Source of the DNA: Platerodrilus igneus
Lineage: Eukaryota; Arthropoda; Insecta; Coleoptera; Lycidae
DNA: 64,000 bases
Direction of reading: 5' to 3'
Assembly (NCBI GenBank): GCA_036346225.1
Contig: JARFIW010000905.1
Location: 1,129,501 to 1,193,500 of the forward strand
This document shows, one piece after another, positions 32,953 to 64,000 of the stretch. Below the pieces are notes generated by a model. The model saw only the letters and a list, made by a program, of their open reading frames with translations, was not told where the DNA came from and made no database searches. The position numbers were made by a program, and so were the translations under genes. Every line of letters starts with the position of its first letter. The first letter of the stretch is position 1.

Positions 32953-32999
32953 TATCAGAAATTTTCCCGATATCTTTCAGCAATTCATTTGACATTTTT

Positions 33000-42414: not shown

Positions 42415-44080
42415 TAGATTTTCCACCTTGGAATTGGTTGTACGCGTACCTACATTGATTTCTATTCTGAGCTAGCTTGCGCATTCCTCTGAAATTCCCA
42501 CAGCCTACATCTTTCAGTATCCATGTGCAATAGTCTAATCTAGGTTCCCTCTACCTCTCTTTTTTCTTATCTCTGCTTCTAATATATTTCGCACTATTCC
42601 CTCATGCCTTAGTATGTGGCCAATCATCCTTTCTCTCCTATTTTTTACTGTTATCTACATACTTCTTTCTTCCCCTACCATTTATCGTATCTCTTTGTTC
42701 TTAACTTTGTCTGTTTATGAAATCTTCATTATACGTGTGTAGAACCACATTTCAATCTCTTCTACCTTTTTCCTGTCCGCTTCTCCTACTATCCAGGTTT
42801 CACACCGTACAGTTTTTGTCTTTCAACACAGTAGTTGCTTTTTCTTGTTAAATGTAGCTCGACCTTGTGCTAATCTTTGTTTCATATTTTTTGCGCTTTT
42901 CCCATTGTGCGTTATTTATCTTCCTAGATAGCAGAAGTCCTTAACCCCTTGTAAGTTCTCGTTAGCTATTTGTATTCTAGTTTTTAATTTATTTTCCTCA
43001 ACTTTACATACCAGTACTTTAGTTTTATTTTTGTTGATTTCATACCGTATCTCTCTGTCAGAACAATTTTTATTTCATTAGGAGCAGCTTCTAACTCTTC
43101 TTTGCTAGGTGCTAACGCCTCTATATCATCTGCAAATCTAAGCATATCAATCTTTTGTCCCCGCATAACTCCAAATGCCTTATTGCATTTGACAGTATTC
43201 ATTATGACCTCGATGTACACATTAAAAATTAATGGGTATAGGGCTCATCCCTGTCTCACCTCTTTCCTAGTATTTACTTCTCTACGTACCTGCTCTATTT
43301 CTTTTACCGCTATTTGCTCTTTGTATAATCTATATACTATCCCTAAAACTCATTCCAATCGTTTTGGGTATTTCGAACATTTTTTTCCATTTTACATTGT
43401 CGAGTGCTTTTTCCAGTTTTACAAACCCTATAAACACGTTTTCTGTTTTTTCTATTGTTTTCACCATTATCACCCTCAGAGCTAAAATAGCTTCCCGTGT
43501 TCTTCTGTTTTGCCTAAACCCAAATTGACCTTTCCTTAGTATTTATTCTTCTTGTTCTTTCATTCGTCTTTGTACATTTCTAGTTAATATTCTTGACACA
43601 TGTGCTGTCAAACTTATTGTTCGAAAATTTTCACATCCATCTCAGCCTCCTTTTTTTTAATATAGTGACTATGATGTTACGTTTAAAATCTTTAGGTATC
43701 TCACCTATCTCATACATATAGCTCACTAGTTGGAAGAGGCGTTCTGTTACTGCTTGTCTAGCGGCTTTTAGAGTTTCTGTTTGTACCTTATCTGTACCCT
43801 TTAATGCTAATTCAAACTCACCTCTAAGTATAGCATATACCAAGTCATCCTTTTCAATGTCTGATTCTTGTTCTAATGCTGTTAGTTCCTCTCCTGTAAA
43901 TAAATTCCCTATTATTCTTGCCATCTATCCACAGTCTCTACATTTTCTATAATGACATTTCCTTCCGCGCCCCTTATATGTTTGCTATACAGTTTTATAT
44001 CCCTAAAATTTATTCTAATTAGTTTGTATATCACGTCTGTCTTTCCTATTTCCATCTTAGTTTGTACCTCTTTGCACTTT
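42415..44080 (-). pseudogene. LINE ORF2 remnant, copy C (RT, C-terminus)
   Basis: The linker (43631-43924, with SDIEKDDLVYAILRGEFELA) is followed by the RT palm with MLRFADDIEALAPSKEELEA (42984-43220) and then the degraded C-terminal block with a readable R-x-R-x-R stretch. The FADD pair is intact. Frameshifts occur between and within blocks. Confidence 0.78.
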
Positions 44081-44399
44081 TCACCAATGCATTATTCTTT
44101 AGCTTTCCTGCATTTGTGAATAGTTTCTCATTTTATGGCCTTATATCCCTGTTTTAATGTTTCTTCTGATCTATTTTTGTATTTTCATCTTTCTTTTATT
44201 AGATTCAACATATGCTTTGTTATCCATGGTTCCTTCTTTTCTTTTTGTATATACCCCAGAATATTTCTGGCCGCCTTGAGTGAGCTGGATTTAATGTTAT
44301 TCCACTGTGTTTCTACTCCCTTAGTATAAGAAATTTTTTTCGATATCTTTTAGCAATTCATTGATTTTCTTGCAAATCTTTAGTGGATATTTTTATCTT

Positions 44400-45292
44400 T
44401 CAGTTTCTCAAAGTCAAAGTGTCCTTTTCTGTTTCTTTTTTCAAATTTTTAAATTTAAAAGCGGACTTTATAATTACGTTGTTGTGGTCAGTGTCTATAT
44501 CTGCCTCTGGGTAGCTTCTACAGTCATTTACTTTATTCCTAAACCGTTGTCTAACAAGAATGTAATCTATTTGATAACATCTTATATCTCCTGGTATTTT
44601 CCACGTGTATCGTCTTCTAGCATCATGTTAAAATAATGTATTTGTAATGGTTAAATTGTCCTTCTCGCAAAATTCTACCAGCCTATTTCCCCTGTCATTT
44701 CTCGTGCCTAAATCAAATAAACCTACTACCGCTCCTTTCCTACCCTCACCTACAACTGCATTAAAATCTCCCGTAATTATTAAATTTTTAACGTATCTTA
44801 GTGTCTTCGATATCTTTGTAGATCGCTTCTACCTCTTCCTTACTGTAGCTAGATGGGGGCATGTATACTTCTATTATTACTGTATTTACCGGTTTAGATT
44901 CTAATCTAACCATGGCTACTCTTTCGTTCTTTTGTAACTAGTTTTCTACACAGTGTCCTATCTTTTTTTTGCATAACTCTCCCCACATCCAAATTTTCTT
45001 CTTTTGATCCTGTATAAAATACCCAAAGGTCTCTACTAAAAACACCCGCCTCTAGCCAGCGAACTTCGCTGATCCTTACTATGTCTAGTGATAACCTGTC
45101 TATTTCAATTTTCAAGTTCTCTAGCTTATTTACTTGTTTCATACTTCTGACATTCCACGCTCCGGCTTGCAAAATGTTTCCCGCTCTTCCTTTAAGCTTT
45201 TGCATCACGTCCTCCAAAGTAGTCCCCTCCTGGAGATCTAAATGGTGGACTATTTTAACTACGGGATCTTTTACCCTAGAAGATGCCTTCAT
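44400..45292 (-). pseudogene. LINE endonuclease (EEP) remnant, copy C
   Basis: N-terminal half of ORF2. The first piece (44906-45292) reads ILQAGAWNVRSMKQVNKLEN and DIVRISEVRWLEAG, which contain the N and E residues of the EEP active site. The next piece (about 44650-44905) holds the GDFN region and LFDLGTRNDRGNRLVEFC. The final YILVRQRF and D-H part lies near 44480-44560. Upstream of the start are VKIVHHLDLQEGTTLEDVMQ and other codons that are also open in copy B. Confidence 0.8.
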
Positions 45293-45595
45293 ATTGCTTA
45301 CAATTTAAGTACGCTGTGTATTTGGGAGGTAATGTGGTAGTTCTCGTTGCCTTCCACATCGCAGTAGTGTGTCTCAGAATGCCATGCCGATCCCTATGGC
45401 CTCTGCCGCTCTAAGTACCGAAAAAGCTGCTGCCCTCTTTCGGGGACCTATCTGAGTCTGGTTCCTCAATAAAGACCCTACTATTTTGTTTGGACTTGTA
45501 GTTCGGATCTTTAGATCGTTGCAACACGGAAGCCATTCCACGCATTCTAGTAATCTAAAATTTCTTGAAAGTGATGGTCCATTCAAAACAGCTTA

Positions 45596-46029: not shown

Positions 46030-47470
46030 TAATTACTTAACAACGAAAATATTTCCATGCAGGTACGATACGTAGCAAAGGTTTCTGTAAACAGTTCACA
46101 GTACTGCATTTGCGTTTTCGTACCTTTGCCTGTGTATATAAACTTTCCATTACCATTACGGTCACTGTTGCTTCTGTAGTTTCTACTGGATACAATTTAA
46201 CAAATTTTTCTAAAGCATCAATCAAGACTAAAATATATGCATTTCCACTTCGCTACGAATAAAAGGGCTTGTATGTTCAATATGAATTCTTGAAAATGGT
46301 CTTTCTGGCACTAGTAGTGGGTTTGAAAATCCAGGTTGTTTTCCTGAAGGGAATCTTCGATAAAATACATTCGGCACATGCACCTATATGCCTACGCAAA
46401 TAACGTTTAATTCGTGCAAACCAACACAGTTCACGAAGATCAAGAAAAGCATTTTCTTATGCATCTGCCCAAATAAATGTAGCATTTTTGCGCGTTAAGT
46501 CACTTAAGCTACGAGTTCTAACGGCATAACGCAGTACAAATCAGCGAAAATAAAACATAAGCCCTAAAAATCGTCGCAATTCGTGAACATTTCGCAATAT
46601 TTTTAAATTCTGAATTGTCGTGGTTTTCACACTACCCGGAGACATTTCACTTACAGATATTGTAAAACCTAAAAATTCTATTCTCTGTAATCCAAATTGA
46701 CACTTGCTAATTTTAATTTTAATTTTGCTTTACAAGCGCTACGAAAACTTGTTGCAATTTTTCAAACATTTTATCCCAGTTTTTTTGCAGGCACGATCAA
46801 ATCATCGATATGCAACATCGTAACTTTGCTTTAGAGGGCCTAATACAATAGAGATTAATCGACTAAACTTCTATGGTCCGTTCGTTAACCTGAAAATTAA
46901 TCGTTCAAATTGCCTGGTTGCGTCAGAGGTAATAAAAGAGGTTTCTGGTTTTGCAGAATCACATAATGGTAATTGCAAATAGCCTCGCGTCAAATCTAAA
47001 ATTGAATAAATTTTAATGCCACTCAAATTTTCTAAATGTTAATCAACGGTTGCAATAGGAAAATTCGATTTCACTACTTGTCGATTCAGAGCTCTATAAT
47101 TAAGAACTAAACGTGATTCACCAGTTTCTTTATGAACTCGTATATGGTGAAACAATGTCTGTTACAATTGTTGCTAGTTTCCTTTGTTTAACAATAATGG
47201 ATATTGTTTTTCTTTTTTGTAAAATCGCTCTACAAGGCTTAGCTCGAACTGGTACTCCCGTATCAGAAATATTAACAGTCGTTTAGTCTGTACGCCCGAG
47301 TTCTTTTAAGTTAAATGCAAAATCTCTTAATTCGGTACACACATCTAACAGTTTATCTGTAGTGGCATTTTCTAAATATGGGTCAACGTTCAACATCGTT
47401 ATGTAATCTCAACGCTGTCATCTTTGGACTCGTCGATTGTGAGCAGATGGAAACTGGGGCTCCTGCTGCC
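46030..47470 (-). pseudogene. pol: Ty3/gypsy pol remnant (RT to integrase)
   Basis: Heavily decayed minus-strand pol. Reading down from about 47160: VHKETGESRLVLNYRALNRQ, then IYSILDLTRGYLQLPLCDSA (RT motif A region), the active-site region HIDDLIVPAKKNWDKMFEKL (LHIDD in place of YLDD), remnants of the RT thumb, and near 46050-46320 the integrase core (PFSRIHIEH, then LIDALEKFVKLYPVETTEAT). RNase H is largely gone. Stops occur every few dozen codons. Style and motifs match the relic at 1-1010, so both may be one old family. Confidence 0.75.
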
Positions 47471-47650
47471 ACATTTCCTCCAGCATCCACATTTACTCAC
47501 ACATCTGGACCAAATTTACATGTAAATTCGCTCTATAAAGTCTTATTTTAAGGGACTCTCCGCCTTGCTCCGCCTTGCTCTCCGCCTTGCTCGGACACCA
47601 ACCCAACCATTTTGATTACATCACACCCGCATTTTTTCCACCCGCGAGAT
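47471..47650. other. left edge of the inverted-repeat region
   Basis: Contains three copies of a CCGCCTTGCTC phrase (about 47568-47602). Recognised similarity to the right arm cannot be followed past 47651, because its partner lies beyond the end of the window. Confidence 0.5.
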
Positions 47651-48480
47651 AAATCTTTTTCTACATTTCCACCCACGAGATAAATCTATCTTGTTTGGTA
47701 TAAATTAATATTAGATTTTTTCAGCTACCCGAATCTCTAAGAATTTTTTAGATTGCATCACCCCCCAGGGAGCTACCCTCATTTTAAATTTTTTTTACCG
47801 CTAACATTCTGAACCAAAAGAGTTTTCTTGGTCTAACCAATGCATCTTTCGAGATAAACCTATCTTGTTTGGTATCAATTAATATTAGATTTTTCTCAGC
47901 TACCCGAATCTCTAGGAATTTTCCAGATAGCACCATCCCCCAGAGAGATACTCCAATTTTAAGATTTTTTGCTGGTAGCGATTTCTGACCGTTCTTAAAC
48001 ATTTTTTAGTCATGCAATACATCAAATTAGTCTAAAATTTTACGCACAACCCGAATATGTAAACAGATTTAAAATAGGACTACTCCTTACAAAGTTACAC
48101 ACATACCTTCTAGCGAGCATACCGCGACCGTACCACTACTCGCTTTTAATGTCATACCATACTTTCTATCTTGTTTAGCTCATCTTACGAGATAAATGTA
48201 CCTTGTTTGGTATCAATTAATATTAGAATTTTCTCAGCTACCCAAATCTCTTTAAATTTATCAGATAGCATCATTGCCCAGAGAGCTACCCCAATTTTAA
48301 GATTTTTTGCTGGTAGCGATTTCTGACCGTCTTTATAAATTTTTTAGTCATACAATACATCAAATTAGTCTAAAATTTTATGCAGAATCCGAATCTGTAA
48401 ACAGATTTAAAATAAGATCTCCTTTTACCATTTTACACACACGCCCTCTAAATTATAAATTTCCTGCAGCTCATACCTAA
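47651..48480 (-). repeat. degenerate tandem repeats at left outer edge
   Basis: At least three diverged units contain ATTCGGGTAGCTGAGAAAAA followed by ATTAATTGATACCAAACAAG (near 47690, 47880 and 48220 on the minus strand), plus a linked CGCTACCAGCAAAAAATCTT phrase. One frame (47784-48002) reads EKNLILIDTKQDRFISK, and a similar phrase occurs near 51215. The mirrored array is 63060-64000. Confidence 0.75.
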
Positions 48481-48602
48481 AAAAAAATCTAAAAACCATT
48501 CTTAAAACTTTTTATTACAGATAATTTTTACTAACACAGTTTAAATTTTGTAAACCACATTTCTAAATACATATTCACAATTTTTTATTCTTAACCTAGA
48601 AC

Positions 48603-49408
48603 TCATATCGGATTATACTTATTAATATTTATTTCTAAATAGAGCACCTTTTCCAAAGACCAACCGGACCCGCATGTTTCAAATTCCTCTGAGTTTGTTC
48701 TTATGGTTTCGCTTAAGACCTCGTACATATTTTCCAGATTACTAGAAGACGTTATAACTACATTTTTTGTGTTAAAGGATTTCACATCGGTAGTCTTTTC
48801 CCACATTTTGGTGTAAACGCCGTAGAGTTCGCAATAGACTTTTATTGCTGTATGTTGTATTCTTTTTTCATTAATTAATCGAATAAATCGCTCTTTCTGC
48901 TTCCAAAGAAACTCGGACACTCCATCGTCGACATTGGCGTTTCTTTATGCGATAGATAGCCATACGGTTGTTAAACACTGTGCTAACCATTTCTACACCA
49001 TCGTCGCTAGTAGCGGTAACTGATGCATTTTTATGTTTGTTGCTCCTTAAGTGTACGGCATACGTAGTTTTCCATTTCGAAATCGCATACTTTACACATA
49101 ATTAGTGGTTGTTTCGTACAAGACCTTTTAACAGCTGTCGGAGCTGAACGTTTACTGCTTAATGACATACCATGCTGTTTTTCCTTGTGTCGCTGTAAGC
49201 TGTCCATTCTCGTAAAAGCGATACCGCAAGACACACAGTTTAAGTACTTTGCTGCGGACGGATGTATAAGCTTAACCGTCGACGATGTTACACCACGACA
49301 TTTGTTCTGGTGCCGTTTGAGAGCAATTTTCCAGGTATAGGAAGCACTGCAAGAGTTGTATTTAAAAACGTTTGCAGGTACCATTTTAGTACAAAACAAA
49401 ATCCGCAC
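48603..49408 (-). pseudogene. C2H2 zinc-finger protein, N-terminal part of PolB gene
   Basis: First frame (49031-49408): C2H2 fingers YNSCSASYTWKIALKRHQNK and LNCVSCGIAFTRMDSLQRHK, then a CKVCDFEMENYVC knuckle. After a shift the text continues to MSEFLWKQKERFIRLINEKR, YCELYGVYTKMW, VKSFNTKNVVITSSSN and the signature GSGWSLEKVLYLEININKYN (48603-48920), then a stop. I recall this layout, fingers plus SGW-N-I-N-K-F/Y, as the N-terminal part of DNA-polymerase-B proteins carried by arthropod virus-like elements. The polymerase core does not follow: the degenerate repeats begin instead, so the gene is truncated. Confidence 0.68.
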
Positions 49409-49549
49409 TATAGGACTTTGGTTAAACTTGTAAGCGAACTAACTTATAACTAAAGAGATTACTCTTGCGTACCTGCTTTATGTACCCTATAGAATGCAAA
49501 CCGAAGGTTTCCGAAGACGGCCGAACGATGTTGAGGATTCAGCGGGGAA

Positions 49550-49792
49550 CTAAATGACGTCATCTTTTGCCAATCCTTGCTGCTCGTCCAGTACATTTAG
49601 CGCCAATGCATGCACCCGGTTTGCAACGTCGTTGGTGTGAATGCAGTTAGTAGAAACACCGGAAAACGTCTTCCATGTTATATGGATCAACAATCGCATC
49701 GCGTGCATATTAAAAATCCAAAAAGGTGGTAGCACACGCACACAAATTGGTTGCAAGTCTTGCAGTGGAAGATACAGTGCTACTATAAACAA
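49550..49792 (-). CDS. 80-codon ORF conserved in both arms
   Basis: Starts MFIVALYLPLQDLQPICVRV and ends LDEQQGLAKDDVI. The right-arm copy (61928-62170) has the same length with only a few substitutions, most of them conservative, and no stop. The N-terminal half is hydrophobic and could include a membrane segment. No family was recognised. The conserved open frame between arms that otherwise have many indels favours a real gene, but high overall arm identity weakens that argument. Confidence 0.4.
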   Translation of the reverse strand: MFIVALYLPLQDLQPICVRVLPPFWIFNMHAMRLLIHITWKTFSGVSTNCIHTNDVANRVHALALNVLDEQQGLAKDDVI

Positions 49793-50869
49793 AAACTTAA
49801 AAAAACACTTTAAACCTTTACCAAGGTAATACCAAACTTGTTGTCTACAGGATACTTACTAATAAAGCAATTTAATTTTAAATAACTTCTTCGTCATATT
49901 TTCGGAAATGGTAGGCTTGAACATTTTCTTTGGAGACAATCGAAGATTGTCGAAGACACTCGAAGAGTGCACAAGCGCGGTCACTAAACCAATTAACATT
50001 AATACCAAGTATTCCATACTTTCGTAGGTTTTTCATTTCCTAGAACCAAATCTTCCGCATAGCGGTCGGTAGCACGTAATGATTTCTAGAACCGGCAAGT
50101 ACTCGATATCGCCCAAATAGAGAATTAAATGATCGATGTTTGTCAACTTCCGCTTCCCTCGTAAAAGGTAGAAAAAACTCGGTCATTCATCCATCTAACT
50201 TATACTTCGACCTGCTGCCGTTCTGATAATTTCCAAACATTTTTTTCAAACGACAATGGTCTCAGAATTTTTAAACCCCCGAGGGATCTATAAGTCATGA
50301 TCAATTACACATCCGAGCTACCCGTAAACTAACAGTGCACTGTATAATACATGCATACCCCTTCTCTGCGCTACTGTTATTCTTGTAGTTGCTAGAAAAA
50401 AACAGTCGCTCTTTTTACTGCTAGGACGGCTGCAAAGCACCATTCTATACTTTCTTTATAAGTATAGCACATCGCGCACTTTTTTGTCTAATAATTAAAT
50501 TTTGCTCGTGTGGGCTTTTACACTTTCGCATATTTAAACATCTAATACGATCGATTAACCACTTTCGATTATTCTAACGGGAACCGCCATACATCTCGCC
50601 GCACCGTTCCTTTTAAATCCAACGATCCTATGGGCTTCCACACACTAGCACCTAACGTATCTTTCCTACTAGTTGTTAAACAAAAACTACCGGCATCGCC
50701 ATGTTCGTATGTGGACGTGAGCAGATGTTTGTGGATGTGTACAAGAATATGTAACCATATACATTAATCAGTCTAAGCCATTTTATTTGGTCCAAAAAAA
50801 CTACTATTTTTCTAAACCACAATTAATAATGGCTTTTATAGGTTTAACATTTCTACCATTTCCCAATGA
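49793..50869. other. element non-coding spacer, left arm
   Basis: No sustained frame. It contains direct echoes of other parts of the element, for example the ACTCGATATCGCCC phrase at 50101 resembling AGTCGATACCAACT at 51720. The mirrored spacer is about 60840-61927. Confidence 0.5.
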
Positions 50870-51466
50870 CTAGTGCTACGTACATGGAAACTTTAATTTC
50901 TTATTGGAGGGAATCCTTATTCTCCCACGCACTGCTGCGTAGTTGCATGCCCACGGTTTTTGGGAATATATAATCGTTATAGGTTGTAAAACCCTCGGTT
51001 TTACTTAACTACACTTTGTGAGACCCTTTAATCTTTTTAATCGTGTCTTTCTCGCTTACAATACAATAGGAGTTATCTTTTGTACTAACGAATTCTAATA
51101 CTAGATCCCCATTAAATTCGTCTTTGAATTTCCGTACAACTTTTTTGTTGACAAGCGGTATATTGTATTTATTATCGGAGGGGTAGTCACTCTTTTAAGA
51201 TAAATATATTTTTTTTGGTATCAACTAATATTAGATTTTTCTAGGGAGCCCAAACCTGTAAATAGATTTTAAATAGGGCCACCCCATACAAAGTCACGCC
51301 TTTTAATGACCCAAACCTCTAATTTTTGCCCATCTTTATTTAGATACATCTTTAAAACCCTTTTTTCGTTACCCAAGACATATGCTTTAACCATCCATTT
51401 CCCTAGAAATCTAAAACCGATGTGTCCCGCGAACACCAAGTGGAGATAACACGTATACTCTGTCAA
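50870..51466 (-). pseudogene. DNA polymerase B C-terminal fragment
   Basis: A 65-codon frame (51269-51466, MTEYTCYLHLVFAGHIGFRF through DFVWGGPI) is followed in another frame by SDYPSDNKYNIPLVNKKVVR, then KFKDEFNGDLVLEFVSTK and KDTIKKIKGSHKV (about 51195 down to 51010). The DYP, NKKV, K-x-K-D-E, EFV and final K-G-x-K pattern is that of the C-terminal end of PolB in polinton-like elements. The polymerase palm (the YGDTDS region) is not visible. Its last part (EGFTTYNDYIFP) resembles the end of ORF1c, so the two may be ancient duplicates. Confidence 0.55.
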
Positions 51467-51774
51467 CCGAGATAGAAGCAGAAAGGATTTGCAAGGTGGG
51501 CGAAGAACTTAAAAATTATGGAATCTTAAAAGTAATATATACAATAGATTTACAAAATCTATATAACTATCTTGGATTTATATCTGTATACCACCCATGC
51601 GTATGTTGATGTGATCCCAGGATGACGTTACGCTAGTCATCTTCGCTCGATAAACTAATTTTATTAATTATCTGCGTGTACAAATCGTGTTTTTTACTCC
51701 GGATACATACACCGGTAAGTAGTCGATACCAACTAAATAAAGAATTAGATGTTTGGTGACTGTTAACATCCGCT

Positions 51775-51870
51775 TCCCTCGTGTACGCCCAGACACATCC
51801 CAACCCGTGCGCACCCCTGCCCATGCGCATCCCTGCGCGCGCGCACCTTCTGCCCATACGCACCCCTCTC
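51775..51870. repeat. GC-rich minisatellite, left arm
   Basis: Four to five copies of a roughly 16-base CGCACCCCTGCCCATG-like unit in an otherwise AT-rich arm. Open in more than one frame (TPAHAHPCARAPSAHTHP), but it looks like repeat and not gene. The mirror image is 59850-59940. Confidence 0.75.
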
Positions 51871-52013
51871 TGTGCGACTGCTATTTCGTGGTAACGTCAC
51901 AGCATTTTGTAAATAAAGAGCAATGTAATACTATTATTCTGACATACGTAACAAAGTTTAAAAAATATTTAATACCAAGCATGGAGTCATTTAAACTTAA
52001 TTTTAATACAAAA

Positions 52014-52681
52014 TTATACACAGAAGACAGTCCTTTCTTTATGTTTATTTGGAGCGGTTTCAATTTTTTCTAATTTTATTCGCAGCTTAAAATTTAAATC
52101 GATACCCAAGTCCTCTATCTCCTTTTCTAGCCAATAGTTTGATACATAGAGAACGTCTAGGTTTTCGAATTGTAAAATGTGCCGAAGTTTGCCTCTATAT
52201 ATAAAGTCTTTGATTCCACCGACAACCAGATCCATCCCTTCGTGTAATTCTTGCAGCTTGTGACAATCTTTTAATCGTGGCTCTTCCACTATATCTTGCA
52301 TACGTATCTTGATAGCTTGATCGACTTCTTCTTGTCGGTATTGGAGGAAATCCTTATTCTCCCATTTACTGTTGCATAGTTGCATGTCCACCACTTTTGG
52401 AAATATATGGTTGTTATAGGTTGTAAGACCCACGGTTTTAAATGATCCGAAAGGTTCTTTACTAGGCAATATTCAATGTTTAACGGACCCCCTTTGCGTG
52501 TGGTGTACGCAAAGGTTACGAAACCCGCATTCCTTAGGTCGTCTATGTTATCCGCCATTTCGATAAATATGTTTTCAGAATAACCTTTTAAAAAATATAC
52601 GGATTTAGTACCATCAAAGGATGGAAAGCCCGCAAGAACGCCTACATAACTAAGAGTCTTTTTTACTAACCACAAATGCAT
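52014..52681 (-). pseudogene. ORF1c, third part of the large gene
   Basis: Opens in the frame containing TLSYVGVLAGFPSFDGTKSV, continues FIEMADNIDDLRNAGFVTFA, and after one shift near 52455 continues from KEPFGSFKTVGLTTYNNHIF to LEKEIEDLGIDLNFKLRIKL. The right-arm copy has no break at that spot, so the left shift is private. It overlaps the end of ORF1b by about 30 bases at an A6 run and may be its direct continuation. No protein family was recognised. Confidence 0.6.
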
Positions 52682-54116
52682 ACAGCTTGTAGAAACCAGA
52701 TGTATCTAAGTCAGTCCATCGGCACATAAAATAATCTTTTAATTCTTCCCCATTTTCTCTAATAAGATGTTCTTTGTCTAACACATCTTTGTATTGTTCG
52801 CGTATTGTAGCCGTGTTTTCCATGTAGTCCAACTTTCGCTTTTTTGCATCCATTTCCTCTAATTCCAGTTGTCTTTTTCTTCCACTTACTACGTATGGCG
52901 TGCATAATGGGGAAATTTCCTTCAGCGTAAACGGATAGAGTTTACTGCCAATATTTACGCGTTGTCGTACAACCTCTGGACGAATGTTAGGCGTATCTAT
53001 CAACCCCAATTTCGAAATGACTATTTCTTTTGGAATGGTAGAATATGGTGTTGCAGATTGTGTAAAATATGTATTACCTGCTTTAATGTAGCACTTTTGT
53101 AAGATTCTTATTTTATCTTGGCTATCTTCCTCCTCTACTATCTCCAAATAATTTACAGGTAAATAGTTATAACTAAAAGCCAAAAGCACATACTTTATCA
53201 ATTTTTCCTTTTCCTCTGGTTTTTCGGACAACTTAATTTGCAAACCCGTCAATTTCTTTGTATTGCCATTACCGCAATACACGTACTGTAGCCGGTTATT
53301 ATACACTAAACAGCAGCTATTTTGTAGCTTGGCCGATAGCTTACTCCACATTTTGGCAAGTGGTACCGGGTACATTGGCGCCTTTAGGAAGTATAACTTA
53401 CTATCTTTCAATAAGGTTAAACAGTTTTTTAAGGGTTTATACACCCGTTCCGCACTGACATAGCTTCCAATTGCACAGTTGCATATTGTCGCTTCCAATC
53501 GCGTAATACCATGTTCTTTGGCCAAAGTAGACGCAAAAGTTTCCCTTAAACGTACATCTGGGCAACGTAAAAAATCTACTATATGATTGCCAAGTTGTTT
53601 ATTAACACCAGGACTTGTTATCTGACACACAAATTTGTTGTATATCTTAATTCTTGCATTGGTTGTTATCCATGTTAAACAATCAATTCCCGCAGTTTTA
53701 TCGTTGTCAACTATAATATTACACTTTTCTTGGTATTCTCCCTTATAGCAAAAGTTATGCTTTGTAGTTAAATAATTACACATCTCCATCTTGCTAAATA
53801 TGCCAGCAAAATCTTGGGTTACATCCATGTCAAAAAGATAGAAATAATCTTTTTCGAGTTCGTCTAATATATCTGGTAGTTCCTCCAATAAAGTTTTCAA
53901 CTTAACATCTGCTAGTTCCACTTTGTATGGAACACATATAGAATATTGGAAGTTTTTATTAATGCATTCGAGGTCTTCTTTTCCGATAATTTCTTTTACT
54001 TTCTGACCCATCTTGTTATGCTTTCCAGAAAAAAACGTAAGCTTAGCTTTAACACCATGCCTAGCGAAAAAAAAACCGGTCGAACTTTCTTCGTAGATAG
54101 CTGTTAAATTCACCAC
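52650..54116 (-). CDS. ORF1b, large conserved protein of the PolB-type element
   Basis: The longest intact frame of the inverted repeat, 488 codons in the left arm. Readable blocks: LEKDYFYLFDMDVTQDFAGI, then [55 protein letters not shown], a central PVPLAKMWSKL block, and a basic stretch GRKRQLELEEMDAKKRKLDY that could be a nuclear signal. The R-x-K-x-Y-x-K followed later by R-x-E resembles replication-initiation proteins of phages and plasmids; this is a hint only. I recall similar uncharacterised proteins in other arthropod genomes. The true start is probably ORF1a. Confidence 0.7.
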   Translation of the reverse strand: MVNLTAIYEESSTGFFFARHGVKAKLTFFSGKHNKMGQKVKEIIGKEDLECINKNFQYSICVPYKVELADVKLKTLLEELPDILDELEKDYFYLFDMDVTQDFAGIFSKMEMCNYLTTKHNFCYKGEYQEKCNIIVDNDKTAGIDCLTWITTNARIKIYNKFVCQITSPGVNKQLGNHIVDFLRCPDVRLRETFASTLAKEHGITRLEATICNCAIGSYVSAERVYKPLKNCLTLLKDSKLYFLKAPMYPVPLAKMWSKLSAKLQNSCCLVYNNRLQYVYCGNGNTKKLTGLQIKLSEKPEEKEKLIKYVLLAFSYNYLPVNYLEIVEEEDSQDKIRILQKCYIKAGNTYFTQSATPYSTIPKEIVISKLGLIDTPNIRPEVVRQRVNIGSKLYPFTLKEISPLCTPYVVSGRKRQLELEEMDAKKRKLDYMENTATIREQYKDVLDKEHLIRENGEELKDYFMCRWTDLDTSGFYKLYAFVVSKKDS

Positions 54117-54408
54117 AAATTTCTTTTTTTAGGATAAACATCCTTTTGTTTGCAGATGTTTGTTCGGCGTCAGAAAGGTCGCAAATTTTAACCAACATTA
54201 TATTGTCACAAAATGGTTCTGTAATTGGTGTGTGTAGACCACCAGTCAGCATCTGTTCGCCTTCGACATAACAAATATTACCAATATCTGTCACCAGATT
54301 ATTGTTGCACATATTTTCTGCCAACAGCCATAACACAAATCGCTCATTTGTCGGTTTCACTTTATTCCCAAGAAGTTGAGAAACGTTAATCACCTTGGAG
54401 ACGCTCAC
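54061..54408 (-). CDS. ORF1a, N-terminal part of the large gene
   Basis: Starts MSVSKVINVSQLLGNKVKPT about 490 bases from the palindrome centre and reads 115 codons to a stop just after a run of nine T. ORF1b overlaps it and continues in the +1 frame after the run. The right-arm copy has the same frame, the same T9 and the same stop, with only a handful of amino-acid changes. Begins with a short KPTNERFVLWLLAENMCNNN-like helical segment. No family recognised. Confidence 0.65.
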   Translation of the reverse strand: MSVSKVINVSQLLGNKVKPTNERFVLWLLAENMCNNNLVTDIGNICYVEGEQMLTGGLHTPITEPFCDNIMLVKICDLSDAEQTSANKRMFILKKEICGEFNSYLRRKFDRFFFR

Positions 54409-54627
54409 GTTTACCGTTCTAGCTACTGTCGAATACTAAATTGAATACGAAAAAATTGTTCTCTTATGTATCCTACAGTGTGGGGGCGTATATTGCCGAA
54501 GATAGTTGAATATGTCGGACACCACCATATCGCTTACATTCTCTGGTTTAGGAACTGTTTCGTTATCCGACCTAGGCCGGCAGGAATCCGCATCGACATA
54601 TGTCCGGATATATGTAGAATGTTAGGT

Positions 54628-54773
54628 TAGGGTGAAATTGCCACATAGGGTGAAATTGCCCCCCATAGGGTGAAATTGCCCCATAGGGTGAAATTACCCC
54701 ATAGGGTGAAATTGCCCCATAGGGTGAAATTGCCCCATATGGTGAAATTATCCCATAGAGTAAAATTGCCTCC
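54628..54773. repeat. 19-20-bp minisatellite, left of centre
   Basis: About seven copies of CATAGGGTGAAATTGCCCC with small variations. The mirror array at 54990-55098 has about six differently varied copies. Confidence 0.9.
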
Positions 54774-54831
54774 GATCTAGGTTGGATGTGGACTTGTCAG
54801 GAGTTAGGTTAGCTGGTTTTGTCTGGTGTTA

Positions 54832-54973
54832 GGTTAGGTTAGTTGAACTTGTGTGGACTTAGATTAGATAAAAGGAAAAATTGATAGGTTAGGTCAGCGC
54901 CGCGATGCTGACCCAACCTATCAATTTTTCCTTTTATCTAACCTAAGTCCACACAAGTCCAACTAACCTAACC
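54832..54973. repeat. central palindrome of the inverted repeat
   Basis: Near-perfect inverted repeat with an 8-base loop (54899-54906); the closing stem is GGTCAGC and GCTGACC. Arms of about 67 bases include the matched pair AAAGGAAAAATTGATAGGTT and its complement. Outer parts read GGTTAGGTTAG on the left and CTAACCTAACC on the right. Next to it the left arm has about 40 extra bases (near 54790-54835) missing on the right. Confidence 0.93.
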
Positions 54974-54989
54974 ACATCCAACCTCGATT

Positions 54990-55098
54990 GGAGGCAATTT
55001 TACTCTATGGGATAATTTCACCCTATGGGGCAATTTCACCTTATGGGGAAATTTCAAACTATGGGGCAATTTCACCCTATGTGGCAATTTCACCCTAA
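54990..55098. repeat. 19-20-bp minisatellite, right of centre
   Basis: About six copies of GGGGCAATTTCACCCTATG, the complement of the left array, with different variants and one copy fewer. Confidence 0.9.
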
Positions 55099-55316
55099 CC
55101 TAACATTCTACATATATCCGGACATATGTCGATGCGCATTCCTGCCGGCCTAGGTCGGATAACGAAACAGTTCCTAAACCAGAGAATGTAAGCGATATGG
55201 TGGTGTCCGACATATTCAACTATCTTCGGCAATATACGCCCCCACACTGTAGGATACATAAGAGAACAATTTTTTCGTATTCAATTTAGTATTCGACAGT
55301 AGCTAGAACGGTAAAC

Positions 55317-55664
55317 GTGAGCGTCTCCAAGGTGATTAACGTTTCTCAACTTCTTGGGAATAAAGTGAAACCGACAAATGAGCGATTTGGATTATGGCTG
55401 TTGGCAGAAAATATGTGCAACAATAATCTGGTGACAGATATTGGTAATATTTGTTATGTCGAAGACGAACAGATGCTGACTGGTGGACTACACACACCAA
55501 TTACAGAACCATTTTGTGACAATATAATATTGGTTAAAATTTGCGACCTTTCTGACACCGAACAAACATCTGCAAACAAAAGGATGTTTATCCTAAAAAA
55601 AGAAATTTGTGGTGAATTTAACAGCTACCTACGAGGAAAGTTTGACCGGTTTTTTTTTCGCTAG
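55317..55664 (+). CDS. ORF1a, right copy
   Basis: 115 codons, same start, length and stop as the left copy, with about five amino-acid differences (for example V to G, G to D, M to I, A to T, R to G). It ends after the same T9 run. Here the downstream frame is soon broken. Confidence 0.62.
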   Translation: MSVSKVINVSQLLGNKVKPTNERFGLWLLAENMCNNNLVTDIGNICYVEDEQMLTGGLHTPITEPFCDNIILVKICDLSDTEQTSANKRMFILKKEICGEFNSYLRGKFDRFFFR

Positions 55665-56827
55665 GCATGGTGTTAAAGCTAAGCTTACGTTTTTTCTGGA
55701 AAGCATAACAAGATGGGTCAGAGAGTAAAAGAAATTATCGGAAAAGAAGACCTCGAATGCATTAATAAAAACTTCCAATATTCTATATGTGTTCCATACA
55801 AAGTGGAACTAGCAGATGTTAAGTTGAAAACTTTATTGGAGGAACTACCAGATATATTAGACGAACTCGAAAAAGATTATTTCTATCTTTTTGACATGGA
55901 TGTAACCCAAGATTTTGTGGCATATTTAGCAAGATGGAGATGTAATTATTTAACTACAAAGCATAACTTTTGCTATAAGGAGAATATGAAGAAAAGTGTA
56001 ATATTATAGTTGACAACGATAAAACTGCGGGAATTGATTGTTTAACATGGCTAACAACCAATGCAAGAATTAAGATATACAACAAATTTGTGTAAGATAA
56101 TAAGTCCTGGTGTTAATAAACAACTTGGCAATCATATAGTAGATTTTTACGTTGCCCAGATGTACGTTTAAGGAAACTTTGCGTCTACTTTGGCCAAAAA
56201 CATGGTATTACGCGATTGGAAGCGACAATATGCAACTGTGCAATTGGAAGCTATGTCAGTGCGGAACGGGTGTATAAACCCTTAAAAGACTGTTTAACCT
56301 TATTGAAAGATAGTAAGTTATACTTCCTAAAGGCGCCAAGGTACTCGGTACCACTTGCCAAAATGTGGAGTAAGCTACCGGCCAAGCTACAAAATAGCTG
56401 CTGTTTAGTGTATAATAACCGGCTACAGTACGTGTATTGCGGTAATGGCAATAAAAAAAAATTGACGGGTTTTCAAATTAAGTTGTCCGAAAAACCAGAG
56501 GAAAAGGAAAAATTGATAAAGTATGTGCTTTTGACTTTTAATTTTTACTATTTACCTGTAAATTATTTGGAGATAGTAGAGGAGGAAGATAGCCAAAATA
56601 AAATAAAAATCTTACACAAGTGCTACATTAAAGCAGGTAATACATATTTTACACAATCTGCGAAACCATATTCTACAATTCCAAAAGAAATAGTCATTTC
56701 GAAATTGGGGTTGATAGATACGCCTAACATTCGTCCAGAGGTTGTACGACAACGCGTAAATATTGGCAGTAAACTCTATCCGTTTACGCTGAAGGAAATT
56801 GCCCCATTATGCACGCCATACGCGTAA
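55665..56827 (+). pseudogene. ORF1b, right copy, frameshifted
   Basis: Equivalent to most of the left 488-codon frame. Pieces at 55713-56009 (MGQRVKEIIGKEDLECINKN) and 56216-56827 (MEATICNCAIGSYVSAERVY) are readable. Between them at least three small indels occur, for example after DVTQDF, near 56090 and near 56150. The frame fails at CTPYA where one base is missing relative to the second copy at 58850. Confidence 0.75.
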
Positions 56828-58607
56828 GTGGAAGAAAAGACAACTGGAATTAGAGGAAATGGTGCAAAAGCGAAAGTTAACATGGAAAACGGCTCAATAG
56901 CGACAATCAAGAACACTTATAGGAATTGGGAAGCAATTAAAAGATATTTTAGTGCTGGCTGACAGATCTGGTTTTAATGTGCATTGGTTATAAAAACTTT
57001 ATTTAGTAGGTATCTTCGAGAAAGGATGTACTAAATCGTATATTTTAAAAGGTTATCAAAACGTATTTACGAATGGGAATAAATAGAGACTAAGGAATCG
57101 GTTTCGTAACCTTGCTACACACATCCAAAGGGTCTGTTAAACATTGATATTTGCTAGAAATGACTTCGTACATTTAAAAGGTCTTAAACTATAGAATATT
57201 TTCAAAGATTGGAATATAAGTTAATGGGATAAGTTTCCTCAATACCAAAAGTATCACACTTCAAGATCGTTGCAGATATACGGATGGCACTTAAAAATGT
57301 AACTGCAGATTACCGAGGATGCGGATCGGTGATAGATTTCTAGGAAATGGATGGTTAAAGCATAATCTTGGGTAACGAAAAGGTTTTAAAAGATGTATCT
57401 AATAAGATGGGCAAAATTAGAGGTTTGGTAATTCAAAAGCATGACTTTGTATGGGGTGGCTATTTAAAATCTATTTACAGTTTGGGTCCTAGAAAATTAA
57501 TATTAGTTGATACCAAAAAGATATATTTATCTTAAAAGAGTGACTACCCTCGGATAAAAATACAATATACCGCTTGTCAACAAAAAGTTGTAGGAAATTT
57601 AAAACGAATTTAATGGGGATCTAGTATTAGAATTGTTAGTACAAATAGCCAAGTCCTATTGTATTGTAAGCGAGAAAGATACGATTAAAAGATTAAAGGG
57701 TCTCACAGTGTAGTTAAGTAAAACCGAGGGTTTTACAACCTATAACGATCATATATTCCTAAAGGGTGGGCATGCAACTACGCAACAGTGCGTGGAGAAT
57801 AAGATTCCTCAATTAAAATTAAAGTTTCCATGTACGTAACACCAGGCATTGGGAAATGGTGAAATGTTAAACCTATAAAGCAATTATTAATTGTGGTTTA
57901 GAAAAAAGTAGTTTTTGGACCAAATAAAATGGCTTAGACTGATTAATGTATATGTTACATATTCTCGTACACATCCACAAACATCTGCCCACGTCCACAT
58001 ACGAACATGGCGATGCCGGTAGTTTTGTTTAACAAATAGTAGAAAGATACGTTAGTGTTAGTGGTGGTAGCCCATAGGATCGTTGGATTAAAAGGAACGG
58101 TGCATCGAAATGTATGGCGGTTCCCGTTAGAATAATCGAAAGTGGTTAATCGATCGTATTAGATGTTTAAATATGAGAAAGTGGAAAAGCCTGCACGAGC
58201 AAAATTTAATTATTAGACAAAAAGTGCGCGATGTGCTATACTTATAAAGAAAGTATAGAATGGTGCTTTGCAGCCGTCCTAGCAGTAAAAGGGCGACTGA
58301 CTTTTCTAGCATTTACAAGAATAACAGTAGCGTAAGAAGGGGTATGCATGTATTGTACAGTGCACTGTTAGTTTACGGGTAGTCCGGATGTGTAATTGAT
58401 CATGACTTATAGATCCCTCGAGGTTTAAAATTCTGAGACCATTGTCGTTTAAAAAAATGTTTGGAAATTATCAGAACGGGGCGGGTCAAAATATAAGTTA
58501 GATGGATGATTGACCAAGCTTTTTCTACCTTTTACGAGGGAATCGGAAGTTGACAAACGTCGAGCATCTAATTCTCTATTTGGGCGATATCGAGTACTTG
58601 CCGGTTC
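56577..58607 (+). repeat. noisy first copy of a tandem duplication in the right arm
   Basis: Repeats in order the content of 58608-61636 but about 1 kb shorter. Losses are mostly single bases in homopolymers (for example CCTAAAGGGTGGG for CCTAAAAGGGGTGGG near 57760), becoming very dense at 56830-57300, plus one jump of about 800 bases. Excess deletions with few other changes is the pattern of uncorrected long-read sequence. The join at 58605-58612 goes from GCCGGTTCTAG straight into GAGGAAGATAGCC. Confidence 0.8.
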
Positions 58608-59080
58608 TAGAGGAGGAAGATAGCCAAAATAAAATAAAAATCTTACACAAGTGCTACATTAAAGCAGGTAATACATATTTTACACAATCTGCGAAACCAT
58701 ATTCTACAATTCCAAAAGAAATAGTCATTTCGAAATTGGGGTTGATAGATACGCCTAACATTCGTCCAGAGGTTGTACGACAACGCGTAAATATTGGCAG
58801 TAAACTCTATCCGTTTACGCTGAAGGAAATTGCCCCATTATGCACGCCATACGCAGTAAGTGGAAGAAAAAGACAACTGGAATTAGAGGAAATGGATGCA
58901 AAAAAGCGAAAGTTGGACTACATGGAAAACACGGCTACAATACGCGAACAATACAAAGAACATCTTATTAGAGAAATTGAGGAAGAATTAAAAGATTATT
59001 TTATGTGCCGATGGACTGACTTAGATACATCTGGTTTCTACAAGTTGTATGCATTTGTGGTTAGTAAAAAAGACTCTTAG
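58608..59080 (+). pseudogene. ORF1b C-terminal part, second right-arm copy
   Basis: Clean copy of the last 155 or so codons of ORF1b, from EEEDSQNKIKILHKC through GRKRQLELEEMDAKKRKLDY to YKLYAFVVSKKDS. It lacks a start of its own: the open frame runs back across the duplication join to 58550, so the apparent 176-codon protein is a chimera. A short in-frame loss near EQYKEHLI distinguishes it from the left arm. Confidence 0.75.
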
Positions 59081-59690
59081 TTATGTAGGCGTTCTTGCGA
59101 GAAAGGATAGTACTAAATCCGTATATTTTTTAAAAGGTTATTCTAAAAACGTATTTATCGAAATGGCGGATAACATAGACGACCTAAGGAATGCGGGTTT
59201 CGTAACCTTTGCGTACACCACACGCAAAGGGGGTCTGTTAAACATTGTATATTTGCCTAGTAAAGAACCTTTCGTATCATTTAAAACCGTGGGTCTTACA
59301 ACCTATAGCAACCATATATTTCCAAAAGCAGTGGACATGCAATGCAACAGTGAATGGGAGAATAAGGATTTCCTCCAATACCGACAAGAAGAAGTCGATC
59401 AAGCTATCAAGATACGTATGCAAGATATAGCGGGAGAGCCACTATTAAAAAATTGTCACAAGCTGCAAGAATTACACGAAGGAATGGATCTGGTTGTCGG
59501 TGGAATCAAAGACTTATATATAGAGGCAAACTTCGGCACATTTTACAATTCGAAAACCTAGACGGTCTCTATGTATCAAACTATTGGCTAGAAAAGGTGA
59601 TAGAGGACTTGGGTATGGATTTAAATTTTAAGCTGCGAATAAAATTAGAAAAAATTGAAACCACTCGAAACAAACATAAATAAAGGACTG
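59049..59690 (+). pseudogene. ORF1c, right copy
   Basis: Open without interruption from the ORF1b overlap through AYTTRKGGLLNIVYLPSKEP and VGGIKDLYIEANF (to 59561), thus covering the spot where the left copy is shifted. A single shift near 59515 moves to the frame ending NYWLEKVIEDLGMDLNFKLR and NKHK at a TAA. Together the two arms show that ORF1c is one gene of about 200 codons, ending earlier than the left frame suggests. Confidence 0.62.
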
Positions 59691-59849
59691 TCTTCTGTGT
59701 ATAATTTTGTATTAAAATTAAGTTTAAATGACTTCATGCTTGGTATTAAATATTTTTTAAATATTGTTATGTATGTCAGAATAATAGTATTACATTGCTC
59801 TTTATTTACAAAAGGCTGTGACGTTACCACGAAATAACAGTCGCACAGA

Positions 59850-59940
59850 GTGGGGTGCGTATGGGCAGAAGGTGCGCGCGCGCAGGGATGCGCATGGGCA
59901 GGGGTGCGCACGGGCTGGGATGTGTCTGGGCGTACACGAG
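59850..59940. repeat. GC-rich minisatellite, right arm
   Basis: Mirror of 51775-51870, with TGCGCATGGGCAGGGG-like units and the same copy order. Confidence 0.75.
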
Positions 59941-60251
59941 GGAAGCGGATGGTAACAGTCACCAAACATCTAATTCTTTATTTAGATGGTATCGACTACT
60001 TACCGGTGTATGTATCCGGAGTAAAAAGCACGATTTGTACACGCAGATAATTAATAAAATTAGTTTATCGAGTGAAGATGACTAGCGTAACGTCATCCTG
60101 GGATCACATCAACATAAGCATGGTTGGTATACAGATATAAATCTAAGATAGTTGTATAGATTTTGTAAATCTATTGTATATATTAGTTTTAAGATTCTAT
60201 AATTTTTAAGTTCTTCGCCCACCTTGCAAATCCTTTCTGCTTCTATCTCGG

Positions 60252-60840
60252 TTGACAGAGTATACGTGTTATCTCCACTTGGTGTTCGCGGGACACATCG
60301 GTTTTAGATTTCTAGGGAAATGGATGGTTAAAGCATATGTCTTGGGTAACGAAAAAAGGGTTTTAAAGATGTATCTAAATAAAGATGGGCAAAAATTAGA
60401 GGTTTGGGTCATTAAAAGGCGTGACTTTGTATGGGGTGGCCCTATTTAAAATCTATTTACAGGTTTGGGCTCCCTAGAAAAACCTAATATTAGTTGATAC
60501 CAAAAAAAGATATATTTATCTTAAAAGAGTGACTACCCCTCGGATAACAAATACAATATACCGCTTGTCAACAAAAAAGTTGTACGGAAATTTAAAAACG
60601 AATTTAATGGGGATCTAGTATTAGAATTCGTTAGTACAAAAGCCAAGTCCTATTGTATTGTAAGCGAGAAAGACACGATTAAAAAGATTAAAAGGGTCTC
60701 ACAAAGTGTAGTTAAGTAAAACCGAGGGTTTTACAACCTATAACGATCATATATTCCTAAAAGGGGTGGGCATGCAACTACGCAACAGTGCGTGGGAGAA
60801 TAAGGATTCCCTCCAATTAAATATTAAAGTTTCCATGTAC
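60252..60840 (+). pseudogene. DNA polymerase B C-terminal fragment, right copy
   Basis: The 65-codon frame (60252-60449) is identical in protein to the left copy. The following SDYPSDNKYN and NKKVVRKFKNEFNGDLVLEF pattern is present with a further shift. A second, noisier copy of the same text lies at 57350-57840. Confidence 0.52.
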
Positions 60841-61927
60841 GTAACACCAGGCATTGGGAAATGGTAGAAATGTTAAACCTATAAAAGCAATTATTAATTG
60901 TGGTTTAGAAAAAAAGTAGTTTTTTTGGACCAAATAAAATGGCTTAGACTGATTAATGTATATAGTTACATATTCTCGTACACATCCACAAACATCTGCC
61001 CACGTCCACATACGAACATGGCGATGCCGGTAGTTTTTGTTTAACAACTAGTAGAAAAGATACGTTAGTTGCTAGTGTGTGGTAGCCCATAGGATCGTTG
61101 GATTTAAAAGGAACGGTGCATCGAAATGTATGGCGGTTCCCGTTAGAATAATCGAAAGTAGTTAATCGATCGTATTAGATGTTTAAATATGAGAAAGTGG
61201 AAAAGCCTGCACGAGCAAAATTTAATTATTAGACAAAAAAGTGCGCGATGTGCTATACTTATAAAGAAAGTATAGAATGGTGCTTTGCAGCCGTCCTAGC
61301 AGTAAAAAGGGCGACTGACTTTTTCTAGCATTTACAAGAATAACAGTAGCGTAGAGAAGGGGTATGCATGTATTGTACAGTGCACTGTTAGTTTACGGGT
61401 AGTCCGGATGTGTAATTGATCATGACTTATAGATCCCTCGGGGGTTTAAAAATTCTGAGACCATTGTCGTTTAAAAAAAATGTTTGGAAATTATCAGAAC
61501 GGGGGCGGGTCAAAATATAAGTTAGATGGATGATTGACCAAGCTTTTTCTACCTTTTACGAGGGAATCGGAAGTTGACAAACGTCGAGCATCTAATTCTC
61601 TATTTGGGCGATATCGAGTACTTGCCGGTTCTAGAAATCATTACGTGCTACCGACTGCTATGCGGAAGATTTGGTTCTAGGAAATGAAAAACCTACGAAA
61701 GTACGGAATACTTGATATTAATGCTAATTGGTTTAGTGACCGCGCTTGTGCACTCTTCGAGTGTCTTCGACAATTTTCGATTGTTTCCAAAGAAAATATT
61801 CAATCCTACCATTTCCGAAAATATGACGAAGAAGTTATTTAAAATTAAATTGCTTTATTAGTAAGTATCCTGTAGACAACAAGTTTGGTATTATCTTAGT
61901 AAAGGTTTAAAGTGTTTTATTGAGTTT
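60841..61927. other. element non-coding spacer, right arm
   Basis: Mirror of 49793-50869. No sustained frame. The breakpoint of the tandem duplication (61636) lies inside it, at GCCGGTTCTAGAAATCATTA. Confidence 0.55.
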
Positions 61928-62170
61928 TTGTTTATAGTAGCACTGCATCTTCCACTGCAAAACTTGCAACCAATTTGTGTGCGTGTGCTACCACATTTTT
62001 GGATTTTTAATATGCACGCGATGCGATTGTTGATCCATATAACATGGAAGACGTTTTCCGGTGTTTCTACTAACTGCATTCACACCAACGACGATGCAAA
62101 CCGGGTGCATGCATTGGCGCTAAATGTACTGGACGAGCAGCAAGGATTATCAAAAGATGACGTCATTTAG
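61928..62170 (+). CDS. 80-codon ORF, right copy
   Basis: Same length and reading as 49550-49792, with about five substitutions and no frameshift (MFIVALHLPLQNLQPICVRV to LSKDDVI). Function unknown. Confidence 0.4.
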   Translation: MFIVALHLPLQNLQPICVRVLPHFWIFNMHAMRLLIHITWKTFSGVSTNCIHTNDDANRVHALALNVLDEQQGLSKDDVI

Positions 62171-62334
62171 TTCCCCGCTGAATCCTCAACATCGTTCGGC
62201 CGTCTTCGGAAACCTTCGGTTTGCATTCTATAGGGTACATAAAGCAGGTACGCAAGAGTTAACTCTTTAGTTATAAGTTAGTTTGCTTACAAGTTTAACC
62301 AAAGTCCTATAGTGCGGATTTTGTTTTGTACTAA

Positions 62335-63053
62335 AATGGTACCTGCAAACGTTTTTAAATACAACTCTTGCGGTGCTCCCTATACCTGAAAAAATGCTCT
62401 CAAACGGCACCAGAACAAATGTCGTGGTGTAACATCGTCGACGGTTAAGCTTATACATCCGTCCGACACAAGGAAAAACAGCATGGTATGTCATTAAGCA
62501 GTAAACGTTCAGCTCCGACAGCTGTTAAAAGGTCTTGTACGAAACAACCACAAATTATGTGTAAAGTATGCGATTTCGAAATGGAAAACTACGTATGCCG
62601 TACACTTAAGGAGCAACAAACATAAAAATGCATCAGTTACCGCTACTAGCGACGATGGTGTAGAAATGGTTAGCACAGTGTTTAACAACCGTATGGCTAT
62701 CTATCGCATAAAGAAACGCCAATGTCGACGATGGAGTGTCCGAGTTTCTTTGGAAGCAGAAAGAGCGATTTATTCGATTAATTAATGAAAAAAAAATACA
62801 ACATACAGCAATAAAAGTCTATTGCGAACTCTACGGCGTTTACACCAAAATGTGGGAAGAGACTACCGATGTGAAATAGTTTAACACAAAAAATGTAGTT
62901 ATAACGTCTTCTAGTAATCTGGAAAATATGTACGAGGTCTTAAGCGAAACGATAAGAACAAAATCAGAGGAATTTGAAACATGTGGGTCCGGTTGGTCTT
63001 TGAAAAAGGTGCTCTATTTAGAAATAAATATTAATAAGTATAAGCCGATATGA
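62335..63053 (+). pseudogene. zinc-finger and PolB N-terminal segment, right copy
   Basis: Mirror of 48603-49408. A deletion of about 64 bases near 62465 removes most of the second C2H2 finger, and further stops and shifts follow (for example a TAG inside VK-FNTKNVV). Beyond the fingers the linker DDGVEMVSTVFNNRMAIYRI is readable. The GSGWSLKKVLYLEININKYK signature near 62985-63045 is kept, again followed directly by a stop. Confidence 0.68.
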
Positions 63054-63059
63054 ATTTTA

Positions 63060-64000
63060 GGTTAAGAATAAAAAATTGTGAATATGTATTTAGAAATGTG
63101 GTTTACAACATTTAAACTGTATTAGTAAAAATTGTCTGTAATAAAAAGTTTTAAGAATGGTTTTTAGATTTTCTTTTAGGTATGAGCTGCAGGAAATTTA
63201 TAATTTAAAGGTGTGTGTGTAAAATGGTAAGGGGTGGTCCTATTTTAAATCTTACAGATTCGGATTCTGCATAAAATTTTAGACTAATTTGATGTATTGC
63301 ATGACTAAACAATTTATAAAGACGGTCAGAAATCGCTACCAGCAAAAAATTTTAAAATTGGGGTAGCTCTCTGGGGGATGATGCTATCTGAAAAATTTAA
63401 AGAGATTTGGGTAGCTGAGAAAATTCTAATATTAATTGATACCAAACAAGGTACATTTATCTCCAAAGATGAGCTAAACAAGATAGAAAGTATGGTATGA
63501 CATTAAAAGCGAGTAGTGGTACGGTCGCGGTATGCTCGCTAGAAGGTATGTGTGTAACTTTGTAAGGAGTAGTCCTATTTTAAATTTATTTACAGATTCG
63601 GGTTGTGCGTAAAATTTTGACTAATTTGATGTATTGCATGACTAAAAAATTTATAAGGACGGTTAGAAATCGCTACCAGCAAAAAATCTTAAAATTGAGG
63701 TAGCTCTCTGGGGGATGGTGCTATCTGAAAAATTCCTAGACATTCGGGTAACTGAGAAAAATCTAATATTAATTGATACCAAACAAGATAGGTTTATCTC
63801 GAAAGATGCATTGGTTAGACGAAAAAAACTATTTTGGTTCAGAATGTTAGCGGTAAAAAAATCTTAAAATGAGGGTAGCTCCCTGGGGGGTGATGCAATC
63901 TAAAAAGTTCTTAGAGATTCGGGTAGCTGAAAAAAATCTAATATTAATTGATACCAAACAAGATAGATTTATTTCGTGGGTGGAAATGTAGAAAAAGATT
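63060..64000 (+). repeat. degenerate tandem repeats at right outer edge
   Basis: Mirror of the left outer array: at least three units with ATTCGGGTAGCTGA-like and ATTGATACCAAACAAGATAG phrases (near 63420, 63770 and 63945). It is cut by the window end, where it matches the left arm back to 47651. Confidence 0.75.

Follow-up and report, generated by a model that had tools for sequence, protein, structure and literature searches.

Head-to-head palindromes arise naturally when linear replicons are copied around or between their ends, as in the rolling hairpin of parvoviruses and the palindromes of yeast killer plasmids, in which hairpin-ended or protein-primed molecules form head-to-head dimers. 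Those replicons are free, whereas the palindrome described here belongs to a chromosomal, transposon-like family of the lycid beetle Platerodrilus igneus. It lies at the end of a stretch of 64,000 nucleotides (the window; C904:1129501-1193500 of the 2.71-Gb genome) and was followed over a further 6 kb beyond the window end (locus L029). According to the relevant part of PMC8097293, vertebrate Mavericks (Polintons) have 6-bp target-site duplications, (AGT)2//(ACT)2 or (AG)3//(CT)3 ends and inverted repeats of 46-1447 bp. The P. igneus element resembles them in its 6-bp duplication, inverted repeats and type-B DNA polymerase (PolB) ancestry, and its ends look AGT/ACT-like, though their letters vary among copies. 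It differs in its arms of 7.4 kb, which leave the window copy hardly any unique interior, in having only scraps of PolB, and in its Rep-like gene and a central hairpin that recurs among copies, with no integrase, capsid or packaging gene on the pieces scanned. The Foldback-like transposon Galileo, as described in part of PMC4168063, also has very long, variable inverted repeats, but it belongs to the P superfamily and makes 7-8-bp duplications, unlike the 6-bp duplication and Maverick-like ends found here. The palindrome is very probably a single palindromic element of Maverick type. That it is an integrated, abundant, non-autonomous Maverick/Polinton-derived element with its halves inverted around a conserved hairpin, taken as a whole with the mechanism proposed below, is given a probability of about 0.7.

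The first-pass annotation had described the last 16 kb of the window as one inverted repeat, centred on 54902.5 with an 8-base loop. The repeat and its centre were confirmed (55 of 60 base pairs match around the loop gccgcgat, against 37 of 60 at the runner-up centre), while its extent required correction, as the left arm reaches 47442 and the right arm passes the window end to C904:1198815. Self-comparison of the window gave the inverted block pairs 47652-49192/62464-64000, 49255-53137/58608-62465, 50085-51421/57325-58611 and 52789-54737/54989-56910. Beyond the window the mirror runs to L029:117, is interrupted for about 5.1 kb, resumes at L029:5222-5315 and stops there. The arm match overlaps by 11 bp across the two sides of this nested insertion.

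The left boundary reads GATTGTG followed by AGCAGATGG in the window, and the right boundary reads CCATCTACT followed by ATTGTG in L029; both outer ends of the palindrome are thus the same terminus, and a single ATTGTG duplication brackets the whole. One target-site duplication around the entire palindrome indicates a single insertion, so that the annotated pair of joined elements has to be given up, and two separate insertions were rejected on the same ground. At the cut-off applied, the 685 bp of right flank past the terminus matched nothing in the window. Judged by eye on the flanking sequences, a perfect 6-bp duplication was found in five of the six insertions with both ends readable (ATTGTG in the window, AATACC in C988, TACGTG in C1010, AACACA in C187 and CAGAAT in C858), and the flanks of C467 disagree (GGGTAA vs GGGGGA). 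One end only was readable in C1197 and C1009, and no end was recognised in C887. Most copies read end in TCTACT, and ACTACT is found in C1608, C1197 and the C1370/C919 insertion; deviant ends are TCTGCT at the left of the window copy and TCTAAT on one side of C858. The last 27 bp differ among copies or copy groups, yet agree between both ends of one copy.

Twenty related loci, the 20 best after the window among 40 scored places, were compared; the query lay inside the Rep-like gene, so that all of them hold this gene and the sample is confined to gene-bearing copies. Arm sequence was present on both strands in 17 of the 20 (matches of at least 60 bp), always head-to-head, left arm then right arm, and on one strand only within the span examined in L015, L022 and L023. 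The proposed check for single copies ending at the palindrome was therefore answered by a large majority of two-stranded loci and three of the other kind. The flanks of L013 and L014 match (96.7% over 672 bp), and their insertions, on two contigs, are 97.0% alike over 9.9 kb, which points to one insertion on two haplotypes or to a segmental copy; their sequences make haplotypes kept apart in the assembly the likely case, and with the pair counted once the two-stranded loci number 16 of 19. Arm length varies greatly among copies. Neighbouring marker pairs, taken within 30 kb among the 150 best places per marker (the window's element giving one pair in each list), agreed with this layout: 19 of the 20 pairs of a finger-gene piece and 11 of the 13 pairs of a PolB piece were head-to-head, with one and two pairs, respectively, in the same direction. 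In the pooled set of 33 this gives 30 head-to-head, three same-direction and no tail-to-tail pairs, none having been seen with either marker. The first-look candidate places for the two markers, 18,370 and 19,793, are unscored numbers which suggest a copy number in the thousands.

The join itself recurs. The hairpin motif (at most three edits per half) was found in 12 of the 20 loci as well as in the window, in agreement with the hairpin-like join that had been proposed, and it was not found at this threshold in the other eight or in L046. Past the inner arm end, the mirror of the same motif is present in most readable copies, L011 and L028 being without it. The direct mirror ends 13-51 bp from the centre in the 12 hairpin loci and at 66 bp in the window, where a 42-bp insertion (earlier estimated at about 40 bases) is located. 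The second arm resumes further out, at varied places, in 10 of the 12; L022 and L023 have no second arm within the span examined. TTAGG-like motifs cluster at 54622-54834 and 54938-55095, oriented toward the centre on both sides; a telomere fusion was considered as well, but these motifs form very short runs only.

Three right-arm stretches outside a defect described below differ from the left arm by 2.8-3.6% substitutions with few gaps (0.5-2.6 deletions per kb), and the arms are thus not one molecule folded back. The divergence falls beside the centre (a single difference among the 231 sites of 54400-54630), the arm-to-arm changes look near neutral (pN/pS 0.81), and the minisatellites were correctly noted to differ in the number of their 18-bp units (7.8 and 5.8). 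If an element is copied around its hairpin before integration, the arms of one copy are expected to be nearest relatives. Within a comparison group of 22 sequences, outside which closer relatives may exist, own arms were mutually nearest in 10 of the 12 cases, or in 9 of 11 if L013/L014 are taken as one; L025 was nearer another copy and L026 had no comparable one. The own-arm lead of L013 and L014 was below 1%, and this with each excluded from the comparison of the other. Region by region, and without that exclusion, own arms were nearest in 3 of 3, 4 of 6 and 1 of 3 cases, with L013 and L014 accounting for the losses.

The mirror order claimed for all parts holds generally, with an exception in the right arm: a stretch of 2 kb (56577-58607) is an additional copy, and its portion 56824-58480 corresponds to parts of 58855-61504. 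Relative to its own second copy this portion has small deletions at a density of 29-50 per kb; together, the two stretches aligned, 57325-58480 and 56824-57160 (the latter a poor alignment with 24% substitutions), contain 51 deletions and a single insertion. Homopolymer runs of six or more number 1.2 per kb in the defect vs 4.5-4.7 in better arm stretches, and deletions are also raised in 55690-56823 (7.9 per kb). On this error pattern, 55690-58480 is read as sequence that escaped polishing and is in part duplicated by the assembly; a biological rearrangement is improbable here, and the outer parts of the arms are not affected. A biological tandem copy was discarded because the sequence is deletion-rich and unpolished. 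The arm differences, which had been offered as proof that the palindrome is real, serve that purpose as substitutions outside the defect, while some of those at 57-58 kb are assembly errors. Two frame breaks are common to both arms, at homopolymers T9 and A6. They were dropped as proof of age because of this location: a Gypsy-type retrotransposon in the same window (1530-9425) has two 1.36-kb long terminal repeats (LTRs) with 0 mismatches and 7 small indels, mostly in homopolymers, and these indel-only differences are read as residual long-read errors of the assembly.

The main gene of the arms, read away from the hairpin, has a broken frame and belongs to a eukaryotic family that resembles nicking initiators of the Rep_trans type. 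Compared with published motif lists (PMC5714925, PMC4797284), the family has the catalytic core residues of Rep_trans endonucleases: the Tyr and Lys of YxK, the Arg and Glu of RxE (Y255, K257, R302 and E304, without exception in both the 19 and the 27 sequences aligned) and metal-binding Asp residues (68 and 192, present in all of the 19 and conserved to 90% or more among the 27; 194, in 18 of 19). The residue order D, DxD, T, YxK, RxE with an invariant tyrosine is that of pT181-type initiators. Fold matches of a full-length relative include TBP-like and Rep-like ones, and those of the truncated window frame were confined to half-sheet look-alikes. The family differs from the pT181 type in being eukaryotic, in an additional C-terminal OB-like region (LEF-3-like matches) and in the letters of the full motifs (RxD, T/SxY/ExG, YxKxxE/Q; PMC5714925): Asp replaces Arg in the first, the second motif is Thr alone, and the E/Q place of the third is Cys in most members of alignment A1 and in most insect members, and Gln in P0038 and P0039. 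Given these incomplete motifs and the lack of a PF02486 match in Pfam scans, it is called Rep_trans-like. Named homologues come from Hemiptera, a locust and Tetrahymena. Two aphid gene models fuse Rep-like pieces with a DDE_Tnp_1_7 transposase (P0033, Aphis glycines) and a trypsin domain (P0048, Cinara cedri); these may be annotation joins. When viral and genome contigs were scanned with protein pieces or the alignment, stretches matched but none of them encoded a relative; scans with patterns gave no match. PHROGs and PDB sequence searches returned weak matches only, and phage, tRNA and Rfam scans and a homologue search with a 113-aa piece nothing useful.

The PolB remnant shares 82% identity with the C-terminal region of a frame of the same genome (L045) that is open and has a DNA_pol_B_2 match. 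This supports the PolB-type ancestry that had been proposed, although PolB is present as scraps only and the main gene is Rep-like. PolB (PF03175) matches were obtained at 87 scored places (including L044 and L045), many in open frames of 645-1361 aa; these are possibly intact Maverick-type elements, not linked here to the arm termini. The C2H2-finger gene is broken in both arms; at other places in the genome its frames stay open over as much as 291 aa (often 276-278), and the end of its product resembles the PolB N-terminus. No integrase, ATPase, capsid, protease or packaging gene was detected on the arm pieces scanned with Pfam, and for this reason the element is termed Maverick-derived and non-autonomous rather than a Maverick proper.

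Table 1. Features of the palindrome, in window coordinates.
Feature	Position	Strand	Remarks
Left copy of 6-bp target-site duplication ATTGTG	47436..47441	.	right copy after right terminus, C904:1198816, outside window
Left arm	47442..54902	-	7461 bp; genes oriented outward
Outer terminus AGCAGATGG	47442..47450	-	several other copies: AGTAGATGG or AGTAGACCA
Tandem direct repeats near outer end of left arm	47676..48450	-	self-comparison
C2H2-finger gene, broken, left copy	48603..49438	-
PolB remnant, left arm	51024..51191	-	residues 782-837 of L045 frame, 82%
PolB remnant, left arm	51591..51710	-	residues 867-905 of L045 frame
Rep_trans-like gene, 785-aa family, left copy, broken frame	52014..54407	-
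18-bp minisatellite, left arm	54628..54770	.
Central hairpin	54880..54922	.	stem GATAGGTTAGGTCAGC / GCTGACCCAACCTATC
Right arm	54903..64000	+	continues to C904:1198815 (L029:5315), 5.3 kb past window; nested insertion L029:118-5221
18-bp minisatellite, right arm	54993..55097	.
Rep_trans-like gene, right arm, first part	55326..56806	+	from 55690 within error-rich stretch
Assembly defect	56824..58480	+	unpolished part of extra right-arm copy (56577-58607)
Rep_trans-like gene, right arm, second part	58589..59701	+
PolB remnant, right arm	60008..60106	+	residues 867-899 of L045 frame
PolB remnant, right arm	60528..60713	+	residues 782-843 of L045 frame, 82%
C2H2-finger gene, broken, right copy	62498..63050	+
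Tandem direct repeats near outer end of right arm	63208..63808	+	self-comparison

Elsewhere in the window, a BEL/Pao-type retrotransposon (22536-28887) has 350-bp LTR-like repeats that are 100% identical, and a further repeat is present in three diverged copies (16761-20070, 28945-33999 and 41334-45552) with frames that look like reverse transcriptase by eye.

Artificial palindromes are known in long reads (part of PMC6218980), and with this precedent, the defect in the right arm and a haplotype-like pair (L013/L014) about 3% apart, near the arm divergence, one might suspect two haplotypes joined head-to-head or another assembly or read artefact. This is very improbable, as the 6-bp duplications match at both outer ends in five of six insertions, the same order recurs at other loci and the divergence outside the defect consists mainly of substitutions. 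The palindrome is best read as real and, as the first-pass annotation had held, head-to-head around a hairpin, which recurs in related copies. There is equally little to recommend an inverted duplication, by the host, of an old insertion at this locus: near-neutral arm changes and shared frame breaks would suit it, but a single duplication surrounds the palindrome, the 685 bp of right flank read do not match the window, the layout is found at other loci, and both frame breaks lie in homopolymers, where the assembly errs.

A Foldback-type origin, in which recombination or gap repair lengthened the terminal inverted repeats of an ordinary transposon toward the middle until the two met, hairpin replication playing no part, appears unlikely, though less so. 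It could explain the great variation in arm length, and several forms of such extension are reported for Galileo in part of PMC4168063. Inward growth predicts varied joins, however, and the same hairpin sequence stands at the inner join in 12 of 20 loci. Gene conversion, which might act in a Foldback-type element, is also the alternative account of own arms being nearest relatives in general; against strong conversion after insertion speaks the fact that the arms of L013/L014 differ by about 5% and the two versions by about 3%.

Before integration, the Maverick-derived palindromic element would be a linear molecule with a single Maverick-type terminus, its opposite end being a hairpin. A copy made around this hairpin would be a head-to-head palindrome with an integrase-ready end on either side, and a Maverick-type integrase provided in trans might then insert it. 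The Rep_trans-like protein may nick the hairpin in cruciform state and so start or resolve replication. Later, one arm would often be lost from near the hairpin through template jumping or palindrome instability. Hairpin copying before integration is proposed tentatively, at well below even odds. More doubtful still is the wider idea that a Maverick-derived lineage turned into a palindromic transposon with a rolling-hairpin-like cycle, in which the Rep_trans-like protein nicks the central hairpin, the half-element is copied and a two-headed molecule is integrated.

A eukaryotic family of Rep_trans-like initiators, to which the arm gene points, was found described nowhere in a literature search that mostly stopped short of full texts. 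To our knowledge, there is no experimental proof of how Mavericks replicate before integration. The family described here preserves a head-to-head, replication-like product in many insertions, beside a hairpin that recurs and a gene for a candidate nickase, which makes the question of Maverick replication testable and offers a concrete lead on how Maverick-type elements copy themselves.

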